64,000 nucleotides of DNA from Actinernus sp. WN-2022 (lineage: Eukaryota; Cnidaria; Anthozoa; Actiniaria; Actinernidae), in NCBI GenBank assembly GCA_030867875.1, contig JAOWCC010001368.1, positions 4,526,965 to 4,590,964 on the forward strand, read 5' to 3'. The translations under genes were made by a program, and so were the position numbers. Every line of letters starts with the position of its first letter. Within the stretch, counting starts at the first letter, position 1. Below the pieces are notes generated by a model. That model saw only the letters and a program-made list of their open reading frames with translations, made no database searches and was not told the DNA's origin. Positions 48,693 through 60,822 of the stretch are shown here, in pieces.

Positions 48693-48764
48693 ATGAAGTA
48701 GGTCCTGTATTTATACACACCTTTGCCTCTAGAAAAACTTATGTCTATATAACAAATCACTTAA

Positions 48765-48777
48765 AGTGCCACTACGA
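48765..48777 (+). repeat. Left terminal inverted repeat
   Basis: AGTGCCACTACGA, reverse complement of 59246-59258, directly after TTAA. Confidence 0.85.
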
Positions 48778-48906
48778 TCAAATTTTGACATATCAATGTT
48801 TTCTTATATTCGTAAAGTAGAGTTGCTATATTATTACCAGTTCAAACCGTTTTTCGATACGACGACGGGAAGTCTTATTTTTTGGACTCCGAATCTTGAA
48901 TTTTAA

Positions 48907-48985
48907 GTCCGCCATTACTCGAACCCGTTCCCGTGGGCGAGGAATGCCTAGTCATTTTTTAGCGTACGTGACGTCATACACTTAA
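48907..48985 (+). repeat. Left subterminal repeats
   Basis: GTCCGCCATTACT (48907-48919) and GTGACGTCATACACTTAA (48968-48985) recur inverted at the right end. Repeated subterminal motifs are candidate transposase (THAP) binding sites. The right set doubles as the start region of the ballast-domain gene; TGACGTCA is also a CRE-like palindrome. Confidence 0.7.
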
Positions 48986-49740
48986 GGTTACCGGCTACCT
49001 TCAGGGTGCGTTTCCAGTCTAAATTACGTAGCGCCTCGAGGAAATATCGTAGATAAATCATCCATGTATCAGTTTAAAGCTTATAAAATTGGCTACAAGA
49101 TTACATAAAAAGTTTTGAGTTCTTGGAAAATCTCGAATTTTCCGCGATCCCGTTTCTCCGATCTAGTGCGATGGCTTTCAGAAGCTCCGACTCCGAAAAA
49201 ATTTTTACGTTTTAAAATCTGTTTGCTTTGTCGCATTTCAGAGGAATCGTATTACAAAGGGGTGTCGAGGAATTTCAAAATTCGATTTAGTTCTAAAGTT
49301 ATCATGCTCTTCGTGAAAAGGCGAAAACATAGTCCGAGTAGTATGCGAGAAACGCCGGCAAGAGCTCTCTTTTTAGAATTTCTCAATTCCCCGACACGCT
49401 TTTGCAGCTGCGATATCAATTGACATTTTGTGAAAATTTCACGCAAATCGAATAAATTCCTCTTGAGTGGAAGCTTTTTAAAAACTCTATTTTGGTTGAA
49501 AATCGAAAGCGTAGAAAATAGCACTTCAAAAAATGTAGCCGTCTGTCGTGCATGAATCTGAAGCCCCGCCTCTCCAACAATTAGCGAGCTCTTGGCCAAT
49601 CATTTCTCATCACAGTTCAACTATCTGTCAAGATTCCCGCCAATGTCGATTTCCGATGAAACTAGCACACATTTTCGCGCGAGTTTTGTTTTGTTGTTTA
49701 TGCGAACAAGGAAAAGAAAAAGAAAGTTTTTGATGAAAAT
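48982..49740. other. Leader region with a possible nested TTAA element end
   Basis: TTAAGGTTACCGGCTACCTTC at 48982 resembles TTAAGGTTACTGGATACCTTC at 59259, just outside the right end. This suggests that ends of another TTAA-targeting family are nested here. No matching opposite end was found. The transposase promoter should lie within this region. Confidence 0.4.
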
Positions 49741-50064
49741 ATGCCTCTAAGTCGGTGTGCTGTGCACAGCTGCAGCAATTTTGCTGACAAAAAAGATGGC
49801 ATTTCGATGCACACTAGTCCTGGTAGTAAGTCGAGATATTATAATTTGTGGGTAAGATTTGTGAGAACTCACCGTGCAAACTTCAACCCTGGAGGACGAT
49901 TTGTGGTCTGTTCAATCCATTTTGAGGAGGGTTGTTTCTCTAGAGCTGTCTCCGTTCCAGGTAATAGCCGAAGGATCCTACCTGGGTCGATTCCAACAGT
50001 TTGGAAAAAGCCTCATGCAGCTCAAGCACCGATTTCAAAGAGAAGTGAGAGAATGCGCCGAAAG
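49741..50064 (+). CDS. Transposase exon 1: THAP zinc finger
   Basis: 108 codons, phase 0, donor AAAG|GTAAAT. C-x4-C ... C-x2-H spacing and FEEGCF after the histidine are typical of THAP domains, which bind DNA sequence-specifically. The ATG follows a stretch without upstream coding. Confidence 0.85.
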
Positions 50065-53000
50065 GTAAATACTATAAACTTGTATAAAACTGGGCGAGTT
50101 TTGACTCAGACTAAACCCAGATATTTCTGTCACTTACAACCTGGCAAACATTTTACGTCAAGTCTTCATGCTTCTCAGTGTTTGGTTAATTTTTTTTTTC
50201 TGGGTTCCGAGAATGGTTTTGATTTAGACTCGCGGAGACTTTTGTATACTGTTATACAGTACACCTGCTAGTGCCAGATTTGCGAATCGATCAGTCTATA
50301 CATTACCCGACTTTGGGACTCGATTGCTAAAATGTTTGTAATAAAGATATAATCAGTCTATCGTTGTTGAGAAACGTTAAGCTTATTTCATACACTGAAA
50401 TAGCAGGCTTGGCGTATATTTGTTTTAAACAGGAGCTTGAAGTCCGCGGTGCTAAAACTCACGTTTTGAAGGGATCCAAAAATGCTTTAAAACAACGTTG
50501 TACATTTGCATACTTTAGGTGGTCTTGGATATACTTGCCAAGAAAAGAAGAACAGAATCGAACCAGAGAGAAGTAAGTGCATGCAGACAACAACTATGAA
50601 AAATTTTTTTTTTTAAATTCTGCAACTTTATACATTGTATAGTAATGTTTCTACATGCACACTGCTATATTGTTCTCATTTGTTCCATTAAATTAAGATT
50701 ACCCAGGAGCTCCTGGATATTAATACCCAAGTTTTTTTGGGGTGACAATAATATCGTTACTAATAACTGTTAAACATACTTTTTCATATATTCTTTTTAG
50801 AATGATAGTTCAGCTGCTATTGTGGCCTTGACCTCTCCACCACCAGTTGTAATATTTCCAGATAAACCCATTGTTAATAGTTCAGCTGCTACCGTGGCCT
50901 CAACCTCTGCACTGGATGAACCCAATGATGATAGTTCAGCTGCTACCGTGGCCTCAACCTCAACCTCTGCACTGGATGAACCCAATGATGATAGTTCAGC
51001 TGCTACCATGGCCTCGACCTCAACCTCTGCACTGGATGAACCTATTGATGATAGTTCAGCTGCTACAGTGGCCTCGACCTCAACCTCTGCACTCGATGAA
51101 TCCAATGATAGTTCAGCTGCTACCATGGCCTCTACCTCAACCTCTGCACTGGATGAACTCAATGATGATAGTTCAGCTGCTACCGTGGCCTCGATCTCAA
51201 CCTCTGCACTCGATGAATCCAATGATAGTTCAGCTGCTACCATGGCCTCTACCTCGACCTCTGCACTGGATGAACCTATTGATGATAGTTCAGCTGCTAT
51301 CATGGCCTCGACCTCAACCTCTGCACTCGATGAACCTATTGATGATAGTTCAGCTGCTACTGGAGCCTCAGGCTCTACCTATGCAGCACCTGCAGTGGAC
51401 ATACTTCCAGATGAACCCATTGATGACAGTGATTTTATATTTGTTCCTGTTGCCTTGACCTCTGCACCACCAGTTGTCTTATTTCAAGATGAAATCAAGG
51501 ATGCATCAAGTACCCTTAGTCAGGTATTTATATGAAATAAATAAATGGTTTGCACATGCATGCATAAATAATGATCACGTCACAAGTATCAAGAGAATAG
51601 TAAATTAAGCTAGGATATGACTGTATTTCAAATGCACTAATATAATGTACTTTTACAGCTGGTAGTATCCTTATCTGTCCCATATTACATAACAAAAATA
51701 TTTGTTGTGACAGATTTTATCAGTTGAAACTTACACTGTAGAATACAAATGGTTTTTATGGTGTAAAAATTAATGACTTATTTTAACACTAGTCACAAAT
51801 TTAAAACTGACAAGTCTGTTTTTTTGGTTATATTTTTCATAGGTGCACAACGAAAATGATTCTTGTATGGACTGTTCAAACTTAAAGAAAGGAAAGAAAA
51901 ATCTACAAGCAAAATTAAGAAGAATGAAAACAAAAGTTGATGGATTACAGAAAAAACTGAGCAGCAATCAAAATGACTGGGTCAAGACAGTAAAACATAT
52001 CAGCCACCAAACAATGGTATCGTCAGGTGTGTTTCAAGAAATGAAGGTTTTATACCCAAAATATTTGTATTTTTAGTTTCTATTACCAGGAATTCCCCAT
52101 TTTTGGGGGGGGGGGGGGTGGGGAGAGAGGCTACAAAACATATTGTGATAGAGTGAGAAGGGTCACAAAAACACAAGGATGCAGTTTATGCTCCCAGCAT
52201 CCCACCACCTCCACCCTGTTGCAGCAGTTTGATTTTTAGGGGGGATTCTTCATAATAATCCATTTCACTACCAAAACATGATTGTGAAATTTTTTATGCC
52301 CTTTGATTTCATTCTGGAACTCTTGCTTTTGATTTAGAGTCGAATACAGTGTACTGTCAGTAGTGTACCTTATAAACCCGACTGCTATTTAAGAACCAAA
52401 AAGTGCAATTTCAGATGTAATCGGAATAAAAAAAATTATCAAGCATATATAATAATTATTATATAACTATGTTATATATCTGTTTTATGTATTATTTATA
52501 CACACAGCAACTCAAACAGATGAGAGTACTTCAACTTTAAGTAACGAAGATGATGAACACATAGATGATGAACACATAGATGATGATGTTGTTGACATGG
52601 ACGAGGTGAATGACTATGAGACCAATTATGAGGATATCCCTTGGACACCAGAAGAAACCGATACAGCATACAAACAGATGAGAGAGGATGATGACAGTGA
52701 AGGAGGTGAACATCCCAGGTAAAGATAAATCATAATTATACTAGAATTATGTAAATAAATAAAATTGTTTGTCATAATGCTGATGGATTCACCATTGACT
52801 GAAGTTTATTTTCAGATACATAAATAGTAATGTACATTGTACCATTACTAGCATACTTATTTACTATTGTACATGTATCTGTCAAATGTTTAAAAAAATG
52901 TTTTTTTTTTTTTGTAACTGGAAGTCGTTATATTTAATGCTACTTATATTTTTATTTCAATCTGTAGGTTAGATTTCAAGGGAAAGAATGTCAGAGAGGA

Positions 53001-56000
53001 ACCAAAGGGCATAGTATTTTTGTCTAAACTCCTTTTGCTGTTTCAACACTGTCACTTGTGCTTTTCAAGCAACACTAAAGTCAGTGCTAGCCAGACAGGG
53101 ACGCTGCTTACGATAGAGTCAAGCTGTACCAGTTGCAAAGGTGACTACACTTGGAAGAGCCAGCCATATTTGCTTGGCAAGTTCCCAGCAGGAAATCTCC
53201 TGCTTAGTTTTGCAATCCTGTCTGCTGGTGCTTCTGTCAACAAAGTGTTACTTGTGTTTCGCCACATGGGTATATTGGTGTATCACCATCCTGCCTATTA
53301 TTATCACCAGAGGCACCTTCTTATACCAACTATAGTTAAATTTTGGCGTGCTTACCAAGCAAAGGTTCTACAATCTCTGAGGGGCAAGGAGGTGGTGCTT
53401 GCAGGAGATGGCCGCCATGATAGCATGGGGCATTCTGCAAAATATGGTACATACAGCATATTTTGCTGCACTGTTGGATTGATTATTCACATCGTCCTTC
53501 TACAGGTAATTGATCTAATATTTGAAATAAACCATGTTTTAATTGCATAATTGAAACTGAGTAATTGCAATCAACTGCAATAAACCTGTGAAACAAAATC
53601 TAATCGTCAAATGTAAGCAAAAAACAACAATGGAATTACTCTCTGATTAGTCTCTATTTCACAGGTTTATTGCAATCACTTAACTTAACCAATCATGTAA
53701 CTTAACCAAAAGCCAAAATAATAACCACTGAAAAGGCCACATTAAAAACTGCAAGTGTTCCCTACCCACCATACAGTTTATTTGTAAAACTATTTAGGGT
53801 GTCCACTATAAAACCCCTAAAAATTACAGTCTTTTTTAAGTTTGACATAACACCATTATTACGTTTGAATTTAAATTTCAGGCAAATGAAGCTGGAAGTA
53901 GTTCTGGAATGGAGTTTCTTGCTCACCAAAAGGCATTTGCATTTTTATTAACCACCAGCATGGTAATAACGGCATTCATTTCAGACAGGCATGCTTCTAT
54001 AACAAAATGGATGCGAGAGGAATGCCCTAAGAAGTGTAAGGAATTAGGAAAACATGTCATTGACCACTTCTTTGACCTCTGGCATATTGCCAAAAGTAAG
54101 GATTTAGAATATTAATATTAAATCATTAGTATCAAAATTACTAGAGTGGTAAAAAATCCAGTCGGGAGCCAGCCTCTGTGGCAGCATTTTATGTACCATG
54201 TGATCAAAGTTTTACATAATTATCACACAATATCTGATCTCTAATTGGGTTGTCAGCCTTGTTCCAGCAAAAGGCAATTTATTGAGCTCAAATCCTTGCT
54301 AATACATTTCCTTCTTTCATAATGTTGACCCAGCTATAAACAAACATGCCGTTCAGCATAAAAGCTAGCAAAGACAATCAATAATTCTCATCACGTGGTA
54401 TACAAAACTTTGATCACGTGGTACAGAAGAACGCTACCTCCCAACGGGACATTTTACCTTTCTAGTGATTTCCATAGTATGAATCATCATCTTCCTCATT
54501 GATTTGATGAAGCTGTATATCACCATCAAATGATTTACTGAAGGCTCATAAAATAAAAGTGAAAAACAAGATTAAAATAAAACCAAGTTAAACTCGCTTG
54601 TTTTAGTAACATGCAATACTTTCCATGGGAGGCAGTACATGTATGTCTATACACAGTGGTTCCATTTTTGTATACAATGCATTTACTTTGATTTTAACCA
54701 TCCCACATGTGCTTGGAGAAAATCTGAAGGCCAGTAATCATGACACAGCCCCTTTATCACCCCAATGACAATATTTTATTGACATGACATTTTTTAATTC
54801 CACAAATATAAGAAATCCAGAAGGTACTAATAAAGCTTAGCAAAGAAAAAGGCTGTGAGGTCATTGGGAGATGGAGGAAGTCCTGCATCAGGCATTTCTA
54901 TTGGTCAGTCTTGTCTACACCACCGAAGATGGGTGATGTGATATTAGCCAAATTTCAAGCTTTTCTGTCCCACATCTTAAACAAGCACAGTAGCCTTCCC
55001 AACCGGCTGTTTAACAAGTGTGCTCACTCGGAAATTGTCAGTCCACGTGTATGGCTGACTAAAGGTAAAGTACTCCATCCAGACAGTGATGCATCTTTGT
55101 AATATATCAAAAATTAGTGCAAGTGTTTAATTACCAGGGTATGGAAACACAAGAAACATATGAAAGCACAAGGTCACTTCAACATTACTGTACTCATCAA
55201 GATTTATGTTATTTTTTCTGTTTTTTATAAGACTATCAAACACTTCAACTTGTTGATATATAAGTTACCCTGTAATACTTTACTACAGCAGGATTTTGAT
55301 TGCTTTAGAGCACTGTAAAGCTTTCAGTATTTCTAATATCAAAAGATTTTGTAACTTTTTTTATTATCTCTATTATAACAATCATACATTGTTTCATGGA
55401 AAAGGATCTGTTAGTAGAGATAAATTAAAAATAAGGAAAAGAAAAAAAGAAAAAAGAATGTTGTTTTGTTGATAACAAAATTAAAATAGGCAATATGTTT
55501 GTTTACAGGATCAGTTGCATATGAAAAGCTATGTGAAGCATTCAGCCAGTTATCACTAATCAAGGGCATCAGGCAAGCATCGCCTATAGCACAGACAAGC
55601 TGCCTCGAGGGCTACCATTCTGTGATCAACCAGTTTGCCCCAAAGATGCTCTCATTTTCATACTTAGGGATGCTGAGCAGGTAAGCCTTTGAATTATGTG
55701 AACTACAGTGTAGTCCAGGTTTGAAGGCGGTAGGTGGCAGATATATATATATACATGTATACATATATGTCAGCTATTGGGTCAAAAGTTACCACCTTGT
55801 TTTTCCATAAACTACTCAATGTTCCTTACTTTTCTTTGGCCCTTACAGGCAACCAACTACTCATATATTTCAAACTTATTTGAGCTAATAGTATATCAAT
55901 AAAGCTACCAGTATATTAAATAAGGTAAATTAGGGCATAGACACAGAGCCACACCTCTTTGTGTGTGTGGAAAATAGTTAATTAATAACAAACATGGAAT

Positions 56001-57065
56001 TTCTTTTTCAGGACAATACTGTCAGCACTTCATTTTAATTACAACTTAAACAGAGAAAACAAGATTGATGTCCATGGCAATGCAAAGCTAAAGGTGACAT
56101 ACCCAAAATTCAAAGATGGTGAAGCCACAGTTAGAGAAGTTAAAGTGCAGCAAAATTATGGTTAGTAAGAGTAAAGGTGCATGGCTACTTCTTTTGGTAC
56201 ATTGTAGGTTATCACTATCGTATGTTGTCTTTAGCAGCAAAATGAATAACAGTGCATTAGAATATGAGAATCATGAGTCTATGTACATGTATGTTTGTTG
56301 TGGTGTTGATTCTTGCAAAACTCAAAACCAATATATATTTACTAAAACTAAGTACTTACTTTCAGATTATGTAGGTGAGATATTTGAAACTCTTACTTCT
56401 ACTTCCCGAGATGATTTAAAAGTAATAGAGGATGAATTGCATGAGGAGACCCCAGATGCCTTGCACAGTATGTTGGAAAAGGAAGACAAAGATGATGCTA
56501 TCGCCAAGCACAATTCCAGAAGAGAAAAGGAAATGGTCATCTGTCCCCCAACATGCTCAGGTAAGATTACATTTCAAAAGGAGTACTGTACAATGTAGAT
56601 CATACAACACACAGAAATGGTAGTGTTTCCTTTTTAATTAGCGACTGTATGAGACAACATAACCTATACACAGACCAGTATGTGCCTAATTTAAACCTAA
56701 TTCACACTTGCAATGCAAGCATAAGCAACTAAAGTATTTATATGCTGTGGTTTAATTTTTACCACTGGTGATGTGTCATTTTTCTAGATTCTTTTCAAGC
56801 TATTTTTTTTATGGAGGGAAAGGTGTGTCTTCAACTTAAATGGGAAGGGGGGGTGTCTTTGGGAAATAAAATATTGCCCCAGAATATTCAACAGGTTAAA
56901 ATTTCAAACCACAGCATATGTGTTATTTGTTTGTTTACAGATGCAGAACTCCAAACAATAATTGAGGGAACCAGATCGACTGGTCAAAGGGGAAGGAGAA
57001 AGGCACCAACATGTACCAAGTGTGGCAAGCCAAGAAAAGGCCACAAAAAGGGACAATGCACCTGA
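49741..57065 (+). CDS. THAP-domain DDE transposase, multi-exon
   Basis: Exons: 49741-50064, 50801-51523, 51843-52026, 52508-52718, 52968-53505, 53882-54095, 54821-55064, 55509-55680, 56012-56160, 56366-56560, 56941-57065; about 1025 residues. The N-terminal THAP zinc finger has C6, C11, C57 and H60, W37 and IPTVW. Next come a 20-residue Ser/Ala/Thr repeat linker, a Lys-rich coiled-coil-like stretch (about 355-400), then an acidic region. The DDE-type core has GDGRHDS (D about 628), SDRH (D about 694), FDLWHIAKS (D about 725) and LEGYHS (E about 846). A C-terminal zinc knuckle C-x2-C-x6-H-x4-C follows. Splice phases agree except between 53882-54095 (phase 1) and 54821-55064 (phase 0), so a micro-exon or a one-base lesion is implied. 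A further candidate exon at 50433-50572 breaks the frame. Confidence 0.8.
50801..51523 (+). CDS. Transposase repeat-rich exon
   Basis: 241 codons, phase 0 at both ends, acceptor TTCTTTTTAG. It is mostly 60-bp (sometimes 54-bp) units encoding DSSAATVASTSTSALDEPND-like repeats, about eight copies, probably a disordered linker. The other frames are also open because the unit is divisible by three, but only this frame joins in phase with exon 1 and with 51843-52026. Confidence 0.7.
54140..54467. mobile_element. MITE inside a transposase intron
   Basis: ACTAGAGTGGTAAAAAATCC...GTCGGGAG at the left and CTCCCAACGGGACATTTTAC...CTTTCTAGTG at the right are imperfectly inverted. Inner TGATCAAAGTTTTA blocks are inverted too. 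Insertion inside the intron of the larger transposon means a nested event. Confidence 0.6.
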
Positions 57066-57304
57066 GTGTCCAAAATGAAAACGAGTAGACATTAGACCAG
57101 AATTATAGATTTGATTGTTGTTCACGACATTTGCATTATAATATTCATAAATTATTGTATACCGTTCAAGTTCATTTTGTCAGCCTGCAGCAAGGGGCTA
57201 TGCAATTTTGTGATTTACATGTACATGTATTCAATGAGGGCTGTGCTGCACCCCTGGGAGATGCTGGAGGAGAATACATCATATACCCCTGAGTGAAAGG
57301 TAAA

Positions 57305-58985
57305 CTATGACTCCTCCTCCTCCTCCTCAAAGCCTCTATATTCTTCACCTTCATCTGGAAATGCAGTGCGGATTTTATTGTATACACAGGAAGGAAGAGG
57401 AAAACGTCTGGAGCTTCCTACATATTCCCAAACAAGCCTCACGAATTGTCTGTATGCTACTGACCGCAAAAACCTGAAAGGCAACAAAAACAAAATAAAC
57501 TACTGAAGATTATATATAGAGGGGAGTTTGTATGAGTGTGCAAGTTATGGCACTGACTTCAACATCATGGCTACCATATAGCATGTCATTTTAGTCTCTC
57601 TGATCCAGACAAATTACAAAGTTACAGTATAGTAAGTTACAGTACAATTATGAAACTACAATTATGCTAAGGCTATGGACATGCCATATATTTGTCCCAC
57701 TCATGCAAATTCTGCTCTATGGCAATCATTGCTGAAAAGTTTACATAATTATGTAAAAGATGACATGCAGAAGGAAATTATTAGAAGGAGAAGAAGAATT
57801 ATAATACATGTATGTATGGTCATGCAGTTGAATTTGTTGTTAAAAAGCAGAAGTAATATAGAGGGATCCCCCCAACTTTGAAAGATATCACTTCAAAAGC
57901 TCTTTCAAATTGTGCAAAATTATCCATTTAGCTCAGGTGTATTTAGACTCATAGCACTACAGCTTACCACTTTATATCACATTCTTTGTATTTAGACTCG
58001 TTCTATGAATGATTTGGGGTTGAAAATGGGCAGGAATATTTTGAATTTCTGGGTTAGGTGTTTTGAAGATTTGTATGAGAATTAGAGAAAATGCATTAAT
58101 GAACCAAGTGGGGGGATATTCTGTAATCGCTCCAGCAGACTGTATGAAGTTTTGACTAATTCAAGCAATGATTCATTTCTTTATCCGGAGATCAATTTTA
58201 CCCTTCCTAGCTCTCATGAACTTTTGTGATAAGGAAACGATATGAAAACGGTATGAAACCTAGTATAATTATTGAATTTCAGACTTACTCGGACTCAGTT
58301 CTGTGACCTTGATAGAAAAGAGTTGTGTATGACTTGTGGCGTTTAGTTTTGAGACCAATTGCAGCAATCTCTAAAACCCATCTGTTCAGACATACATCAT
58401 CGAAAGCAGGATGCAGCGTAATGCACTCGTTCTCTTTCCCAACGTCCTCCATTTTTTCCATACATCTGTCGCATTCTTTACAGCAAGTACACTCAACTGC
58501 TTTGACGATACGATCTAAAGAACAGCGAGAACAGCTGCACCTGAAATAAAGTTCAAAGACTCTAGTCATGGATTCCTAGCCATGTAATGGCCTTCTCCAT
58601 ACATATATACATACAAGTTTTCCGAGTTTAGGATTTTACACATGCAAGTGACTAAAAATCGAGGTAAAATACGGATAATGTTAACAGTGGTTATGCGTAT
58701 AAAAGAAAAAGGATACAAAAGCGCTACATACCACACATTAACATCAGATTCGCCGGAAAATCTGTTCGAAAACTCGACTTCTTCTTCCTCCTCCTGGGCG
58801 ACTTGTTGAGCATACTCTGCGGCTTCTTGCTCGGTTGCCAACGGCTCCAAATTATCTAAATTGTCTTCACACGACAATAAATCTAAACAGGATGACACAC
58901 TGCTATTCCGTGATGATTCTGACGCAGTCTCTGGTTCAGAATCGTGTAAATCCCCGCTGAATTCGCCGTTTGATTCTGTAGCCAT
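57305..58985 (-). CDS. P2X7 C-terminal (ballast) domain protein, three exons
   Basis: Exons 58985-58732, 58540-58289 and 57473-57305 join in phase (GTATGT and GTAAGT donors, TTTCAG acceptors), giving 224 residues. The N-terminus is acidic (Glu/Ser-rich, about 1-84). The rest is the zinc-binding P2RX7_C domain: WCSCSRCS, ECTCCKECDRC, NECITLHPAFDDVCLNRWVL, then FLRSVAYRQFVRLVWEYVG, RRFPLPSCVYNKIRTAFPDE and YRGF. In vertebrates this domain forms the cytoplasmic tail of the P2X7 ATP-gated channel. Here there is no channel part. The protein ends in a poly-Glu tail. It is convergent with the transposase, 240 bp apart, inside the same TTAA-flanked element. Function unknown; a nucleic-acid or nucleotide-binding accessory role is only a guess. 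Confidence 0.85.
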
Positions 58986-59027
58986 TACTATATTTACAAG
59001 AATTGTATGGAGAACGAGCGAGAGGCG

Positions 59028-59106
59028 TTAAGTGTATGACGTCACGACGGAACGCCGCTGGTTGTAAATCGAAGGCTCGCGAGTACGCACTTTAGTAATG
59101 GCGGAC
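59028..59106 (-). repeat. Right subterminal repeats
   Basis: TTAAGTGTATGACGTCAC (59028-59045) and AGTAATGGCGGAC (59094-59106) mirror the left subterminal pair. They lie 40-120 bp upstream of the ballast gene's ATG. Confidence 0.7.
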
Positions 59107-59245
59107 GTGATTTTGACGGTAAACTCTCTTAAAATATCGTACTGTAATTCACTCCTTTGGCAAAGTATTTCACTAATTTGGATATTTCTATTACTGTTTT
59201 ACATATTGGGATACAAAAAGTGCAAAAGGAAATGGTCGATTTTCG

Positions 59246-59258
59246 TCGTAGTGGCACT
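59246..59258 (-). repeat. Right terminal inverted repeat
   Basis: TCGTAGTGGCACT, followed by TTAA; reverse complement of 48765-48777. Confidence 0.85.
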
Positions 59259-59262
59259 TTAA

Positions 59263-60822
59263 GGTTACTGGATACCTTCAAAAGTGATTTCCGCAAAAAT
59301 GCGTTTACGCGGGCGCTCGGCGAACAAAATATGGGAACCTATATATCAATGGAAAGGTTGATAACTGAAGAATACCAGTAAAAGGTTATTTTATACGGAA
59401 TTACTCTAGATTAAAAACTACAGTCACTTTAACCCGATGTCGAAGACGTTTATAAACGCGAATTACCAGCGCCGGGTTTTTAGGGGCCGTCGATATATTC
59501 ACTTTGTCCGCGCTTAACGTCAACTGGACGTTAACGTCAACTGGACGGGGTTAAAGAGCGTGAAGTTGTGGACGTTAGTCTGTGGCATGTTTGTTAAAAC
59601 ATTTTTTTCTCAGCAACTGATTCACACCTACTTAGAGCGGCTTTCCGGACTCGACATCCAACACCCATTCTCCAATCAGAAACAACCTCCTGGAGTCTCC
59701 CAAAATTCCGCGGGAAATACTAAAGATAGAGTTTCAATATGTAAGTATAATTACAAGCCATAGTTCTCCTTGTAGTCTCTTGTTTTAATATGTGGGTTCC
59801 AGAGAATATTGTAATCTAGGAATTAGAGAAATATATATATTTGCCGAGATGAATATTGTATATTGATTTCCGACCAAAGGTATGCGCCGTATCTATAGCC
59901 GGCTTGTTTGAATTGAAAAAAAAAAGACAAAAAGGTGAACCGTCAGACTTTACGTTTCCATCTTAGCTTTCTTGGAAACAAATATTCTCTCCTATCTCTC
60001 CTGGCTCCTATCAATTCTTCTTTATGTTCGGATGTGGATCACTCTGCACTCGGCACGCAAGTGAAATACGAACCCTTATCGGGTTTTGCGAGGACTTCTA
60101 TTTTTATCTGCATGTAACAGCACTCGACAAATACATGTCGCAGTTTTCATCCTGAAAATATAACGAAGGGTATTTAAGGAAAAATACTGTTAGCTGGTTA
60201 ATTGAACAAAATGCTTATTTGTTTTGATCTTGAAGAAAATCCTGAGGAACAAATATTAAGCGATAAATTCAGTTTAATTTCCTGTTTTTAAGGGACATGT
60301 TTTATCGCCGATGAATAGATAGATACCTTTTAAGTAATTTCCACATGCAGGCGAACGGAACTCGTGGAGTGGTCATTATTCATTATAGTTTGACTGATCT
60401 TCAGACGATGTTTAACAGCGTCCGAACTAAAGTGATATATGGCATTTTTGAAAAACACAAACATAATGCGAAAAACACAGAAAAATAGTAGTGCATTGGA
60501 AATATATGACTGCAATCCACTCCCATTGAAGTCCGGAGACAGATGTTACTTTTCCTGACCAATATCCTCCTGTCACAGGAGCTGATAGATTGTTTGACGC
60601 AGCTGATGACCGAATTCATAATGCTGCCTCCTTATTTGCCTAATCTGTAGAGGAAAACTAATGGTACCCACATGAAAGAAAACATTAAAACTAGTAATTG
60701 TTGTTCGGTTTTGACTCAACAGCAGCACTACATATTGCTCTATAGGCTGGTGATTTCAAATGCCAAAAGCGAGGCTAGGAAGTCCTCGGGTTGTTTTTTC
60801 ATACAAATCTCTCTAGTTTCAC
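59263..60822. other. Intergenic after the transposon
   Basis: Starts with GGTTACTGGATACCTTC, possibly the end of another TTAA element. A short direct repeat ACGTCAACTGGACG occurs twice at about 59518-59547. No exon recognised. Confidence 0.35.

Follow-up and report, generated by a model that had tools for sequence, protein, structure and literature searches.

A Kolobok transposon of Actinernus with two convergent predicted genes, one encoding a P2X7-ballast protein that is probably the partner of the transposase

A 10.5-kb element at positions 48761-59262 of a stretch of the Actinernus sp. WN-2022 genome is best read, with fairly good confidence, as a Kolobok DNA transposon with two convergent predicted genes, in which KolX, a protein with the P2X7-ballast domain, is likely the partner protein of the transposase. 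The stretch (the window, 64,000 nucleotides; contig JAOWCC010001368.1 of assembly GCA_030867875.1, here C398) belongs to a genome of 1.39 Gb in 1772 contigs. Kojima and Bao (2022, PMC9587614) report that Kolobok elements of the Kol0 lineage, which have cnidarians among their hosts, code for two proteins; one of these, KolX, shows the cytoplasmic ballast fold, in which seven cysteines are conserved, and P2X7 is proposed to have arisen by fusion of a P2X4-like gene to KolX. The sequence-only reading of the window had taken the pairing of transposase and ballast gene to be undescribed; since both pairing and capture are stated in that paper, neither is new. Beyond it, literature searches gave no relevant paper on the transposase-KolX pairing. 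What is added here are genome-wide counts that show how regular the pairing is: a defined group of transposases is accompanied by the ballast gene in one fixed orientation. The window supplies an intact-frame, structurally complete example of the transposon type proposed as the source of the P2X7 tail.

The limits of the element are set by the following features:

48761-48764, no strand: left TTAA target-site duplication, by sequence reading
48765-48777, + strand: left 13-bp terminal inverted repeat AGTGCCACTACGA, an exact match to the right end
48907-48938, + strand: left outer subterminal motif with core GTCCGCCATTACT, present at both ends of 2.1-kb derivatives
48967-48985, + strand: left inner subterminal motif CGTGACGTCATACACTTAA, also at both ends of the 2.1-kb derivatives
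59028-59046, - strand: right inner subterminal motif, identical to 48967-48985 in inverted orientation
59075-59106, - strand: right outer subterminal motif, inverted counterpart of 48907-48938
59246-59258, - strand: right 13-bp terminal inverted repeat, inverted AGTGCCACTACGA
59259-59262, no strand: right TTAA target-site duplication, by sequence reading

The window contains 49,122 pairs of TTAA at a spacing of 1-20 kb. Only this pair has inverted ends that match at 13/13 positions, with about 0.001-0.002 such pairs expected by chance; the runners-up are two pairs at 11/13. The inner subterminal motifs are identical over 19/19 positions, and the outer ones show 72% identity around an exact 13-bp core. 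Both the TTAA-flanked perfect ends and the two inverted motif pairs had been noticed from the letters alone, and both stand. Because the ends are perfect and the TTAA are paired, two unrelated insertions are an unlikely source of this structure. The duplication has the 4 bp of Kolobok, and the termini, AG...CT, follow the 5'-RR...YY-3' rule given for the superfamily (PMC9587614).

Two further repeats touch these ends. A 22-bp sequence starting from TTAA (TTAAGGTTACYGG...) is found within the left end (48982-49003) and again at the right TTAA, facing outward (59259-59280); GGTAACC adjoins the TTAA of one derivative locus (L001) as well, and the sequence may mark the border of another repeat that targets TTAA. 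The CRE-like palindrome TGACGTCA occurs nine times in the window, with about one occurrence expected at equal base frequencies, and two of the nine copies sit within the subterminal motifs.

Between the ends lie the two predicted genes:

49741-57065, + strand: THAP-DDE transposase gene, 12 predicted exons, supported by one open frame, a Pfam match and a homologue alignment
exons 1-6, + strand: 49741-50064, 50519-50572, 50801-51523, 51843-52026, 52508-52718, 52968-53505
exons 7-12, + strand: 53882-54095, 54813-55064, 55509-55680, 56012-56160, 56366-56560, 56941-57065
50801-51523, + strand: exon 3, about nine tandem copies of an acidic, Ser/Thr-rich repeat of about 20 residues, between the THAP and DDE regions
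52968-56160, + strand: exons 6-10, DDE core with motifs GDGRHDSMGHS, FISDRH, DLWH and CLEGYH
57305-58985, - strand: KolX gene, three predicted exons (58985-58732, 58540-58289, 57473-57305), supported by a Pfam match and the fold of a homologue

The 12-exon model gives a single open frame of 1046 aa, with a THAP domain at residues 6-87 (PF05485, E 2.5e-9). In an alignment of 48 homologues GDGRHD, ISDRH, DLWH and LEGYH are invariant or nearly so, and H and C columns are conserved between DxxH and the last E, where a Kolobok zinc finger would lie (Repbase members were not in the alignment). The C/DxxH that marks Kolobok between the second D and the E is present in the frame, and a CCHC-like knuckle can be read from the sequence at the C-terminus. 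An earlier source for Kolobok is reportedly Kapitonov and Jurka, 2007. The Montipora protein P0016 aligns with residues 395-1046 at 67% identity, and no alignment gap falls at the exon junctions near residues 678-1005. The fold of the DDE core was examined on an Oculina homologue (P0015), not on the window protein; Foldseek places the P element transposase at rank 12 (E 0.06). A further fold search did not have it within the 50 entries listed, an absence that carries no weight. The proposal of a spliced THAP-DDE-zinc-knuckle transposase in a Kolobok element thus finds its domain, motifs and knuckle in one frame, and its TTAA, termini, THAP and DxxH all agree. Intron 7 holds another high-copy repeat (54126-54479), with inverted halves at 54189-54218 and 54399-54428.

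The predicted KolX is a protein of 224 aa, with P2RX7_C (PF20478, E 2.3e-12) as its sole Pfam match. The gene runs convergent to the transposase gene, and the right inner subterminal motif begins 42 bp upstream of its ATG, in what may be the promoter region. A spliced, convergent gene for a stand-alone P2RX7_C protein, as first read from the letters, is what the exon model and domain match bear out. The P2X7 ballast fold expected of a Kol0 second protein is supported by this match and by the fold of a Montipora homologue, not by that of the spliced window protein. The N-terminus is acidic and Ser-rich, with conserved S and EEE stretches. A P2X channel gene was considered and rejected, as KolX has no P2X channel domain. 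Intron 2 of KolX contains a repeat (57868-58133) listed at more than 30 other places in the genome at 79-92% identity. Both proteins have their closest named relatives in corals and sea anemones.

How often do the two genes occur together? Genome searches scored the best 150 or so candidates each. The 150 matches to transposase exon 6 reduce to 146 loci, four second fragments being left out, and the matches listed for the KolX protein (152 reported, the last not among them) to 99 loci, taken once each without the further exons of the same loci. At 68-100% identity a KolX lies no more than 30 kb away from 30 of the 38 listed transposase loci (no more than 15 kb for 28 of them), convergent in every case; chance would give 0.004 KolX neighbours per locus. 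Below 40% identity, 8 of the 11 loci have KolX, all eight convergent, two neighbouring loci sharing one KolX. Within the 68-100% group an intact exon 6, scored by eye, is found in 26/30 paired and 2/8 unpaired loci (Fisher p 0.0017). The identities of the two proteins also correlate (rho 0.57, n=14, p 0.03, near-identical copies collapsed). This sample started from 24 of the 30 pairs, six partial or split ones being left out, and fell to 23 without the window and to 14 with the near-identical family collapsed; the KolX of the window was set to 100, the search having given 89 since its match runs into an intron.

The near-identical family consists of ten nearly equal-scoring related Kolobok copies with convergent KolX about 5.4 kb or 9.6-10.2 kb away, probably a recent burst:

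C888:18311039, C888:34173205, C1695:35648, C685:65411301, C1496:807766
C685:54170351, C903:49532, C1380:51962534, C398:34233360, C235:47813785

The pairing recurs in another cnidarian. In Acropora cervicornis a transposase (P5673_029832) and a KolX (P5673_029831), both named partial, have consecutive locus tags and lie on equally long contigs, the kind of neighbourhood in another cnidarian that the sequence-only reading had proposed to look for; in Acropora muricata one transposase and one KolX are likewise on equally long contigs. Scans of viral contigs with a few peptide patterns, drawn from KolX and from the Oculina transposase, gave no relative. The sequence-only reading also took the ballast domain to be encoded by a transposon gene, which is borne out by two genes within the same ends and by a pairing that recurs in the genome.

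These observations bear on whether KolX is a host gene caught by chance and carried as a passenger. Such an origin would fit the many ballast loci with no listed transposase nearby (58/99 in the KolX search, 146/149 in the Pfam search), but a passenger would not be expected in convergent arrangement at 30/38 loci across 68-100% transposase identity and at 8/11 loci below 40%, two of them sharing one KolX, nor adjoining the transposase by locus tag in A. cervicornis, nor in the other animals for which the pairing is published (PMC9587614). A passenger origin is extremely improbable.

Several counts weigh against a general partnership. At 40-67% identity only 5 of 97 listed transposase loci have KolX within 30 kb, three of them convergent, and the Pfam model adds one more convergent pair. 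Some Kolobok relatives can therefore do without KolX, unless theirs is too divergent or falls outside the 150 scored candidates. Conversely, 58 of the 99 KolX loci lack a listed convergent transposase partner. In the genome search with P2RX7_C all of the best 150 of 629 candidates pass the cut-off, and many of them are stop-free frames in a single exon; when 149 of these 150 matches were compared with all 146 exon-6 loci and with 113 of 129 PF20700 matches (second fragments left out), only 3/149 lay within 30 kb of any exon-6 locus. PF20700 transposases were tried as the missing partner and rejected, with 0/149 ballast loci within 30 kb of the 113. The unpaired ballast loci either have other transposons as carriers, or have transposases too different or beyond the listed matches, or stand alone. 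At one of them (C888:46500845-46501201) no other frame of at least 120 aa occurs in 6 kb on one side, and the neighbouring frame appears, in our reading, reverse-transcriptase-like. Free-standing ballast proteins are reported from sponges to fish, with one or a few genes (<10) per species, by Rump et al. (2020, PMC7016195), in the main text of which the stem 'transpos' is absent. Also on this side, KolX may serve outside transposase assistance, and no second complete copy of the window's own family was found.

The copies of that family are informative in another way. The interior and right part of the element were searched separately from the left end. The KolX region finds three further copies of the window's KolX gene, on C540 (86%), C995 (84%) and C1569 (83-84%, in two pieces), all matching the right-hand 2.9 kb only, with the last transposase exons, and all with stops and gaps in the KolX frame. 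The transposase core is absent from the 11-14 kb read upstream of each, and an intact left end was not seen in the same stretches, C995 having two short inverted left-end fragments. Because they share flanking sequence, the C540 and C995 copies likely descend from one insertion. The best other match to the transposase core is a broken copy on C813. The window copy is therefore the only complete copy of its family found in the genome searches. The sequence-only reading would have required other copies in which one pair of ends encloses both genes. Such copies did not appear for this family, where KolX is found in three partial copies; the pairing itself, judged by gene positions, recurs in related families.

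The left 900 bp or so (48761-49660) behave differently and are high-copy: 40 of 42 listed matches are at 90-94% identity, an incomplete set since the window's own copy is not in it. Six of eight left-end loci examined (L001-L008) are gene-less elements that measure about 2.07-2.17 kb and are flanked by TTAA on each side; for the other two, no right end was seen in the stretch examined. In the 2.1-kb derivatives the right end is 83-84% like that of the window, and the block 48907-48985 is repeated inverted at the right end. Since the motifs are kept in copies without either gene, they are suggested to serve transposition, likely as transposase sites.

Could the element be a chimera, made of the left end of the abundant 2.1-kb family and the right half of a different element? 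The left 900 bp at 90-94% identity to a high-copy repeat, and a right 2.9 kb shared with three copies that lack the left end, would suit such a join. The inverted ends match at 13/13 with TTAA on both sides, though, one transposase frame stays open from 49741 to 57065, and the 2.1-kb copies themselves bear the window's right end at 83-84%. A chimera is accordingly given very little credence.

Beside what is observed (ends, TTAA, open frames over predicted exons, domains, convergent pairing that recurs, and ends and motifs retained in gene-less copies), a mechanism can be proposed in which we infer binding, partnership and activity from sequence. Each gene would be transcribed inward from its own end, so that both proteins would come from one element. 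The inverted subterminal motifs would be bound by the THAP domain of the transposase; the transposase would bring both ends together and, by means of its DDE core, excise and reinsert the element at TTAA. An accessory subunit of this complex would be KolX, in which a helical domain held by zinc follows an acidic, Ser-rich tail. That KolX acts together with the transposase seems most likely because the genes share one element, hold a fixed convergent orientation and are retained in intact copies. On this account the original role of the P2X7 ballast becomes testable by a transposition assay.

The chief competing view is that KolX takes no part in transposition itself but manages the host. By means of its acidic tail and zinc domain it might, for instance, control how the element is transcribed or keep it from being silenced. 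The acidic, Ser-rich N-terminus with its conserved stretches would suit such a role, as would the P2X7 literature that ties the ballast to signalling and the 40-67% relatives, which mostly lack a detected KolX yet have many copies. Presence of KolX tracks intact transposase exons, which speaks for the partnership instead. To our knowledge no host target of KolX is known, which also counts against this role, and it is judged rather unlikely.

A bolder form of the partnership, offered by analogy, is that KolX may be the guanine-nucleotide module of a two-chain transposase, the nucleotide being supplied in trans on the ballast domain. The guess is prompted by the P element transposase, a THAP protein that requires GTP for end pairing (PMC7776569), and by the rat P2X7 ballast, which binds GDP and GTP (PMC9248971). 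Rat P2X7 holds guanine through R546, H547, R574, R578 and K583 (PMC7016195). Across 26 KolX sequences, the window's included, R546 is kept in 23/26, R578 in 24/26 and H547 in 4/26, R574 and K583 in 0/26 each, and Y550 in 26/26. KolX does not carry the full P2X7-type site, and the case for a clear guanine-nucleotide binder is weakened, most sequences keeping two of the five contacts. The comparison would lend lukewarm support to a guanine role, which is regarded as improbable. If it were true, the site at which P2X7 binds GDP would be left over from one that served a transposition cofactor.

Among known systems, Kol0 Kolobok elements share with the window element the TTAA duplication, the RR...YY termini, a DDE core with DxxH, a second protein of ballast fold and cnidarian hosts. 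The window element differs from the published Kol0 in its many predicted introns, and its pairing is counted genome-wide here; its probable Kol0 assignment is made through KolX. KolobokP (PMC9587614), of the same superfamily, likewise has a second, accessory gene that lies downstream of the transposase on the other strand, but there it is a His-Me nuclease and here KolX. KolobokP has long terminal direct repeats of about 450 or 660 bp; none joins both ends among the 20 largest of 43 direct-repeat families in the window, the largest being an internal tandem repeat, and this identity was rejected. Compared with the ballast of the P2X7 receptor (6U9V, 8TR5, 9E3M), KolX comes without a channel domain and with an extra acidic, Ser-rich tail, and H547, R574 and K583 of the receptor GDP site are not conserved in most KolX. 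The P element transposase (PMC7776569) has the same combination of THAP domain and RNase H-type DDE core; its GTP-binding insert, which positions the transposon end, lies in the same chain, whereas in the window element the ballast protein is a separate chain.
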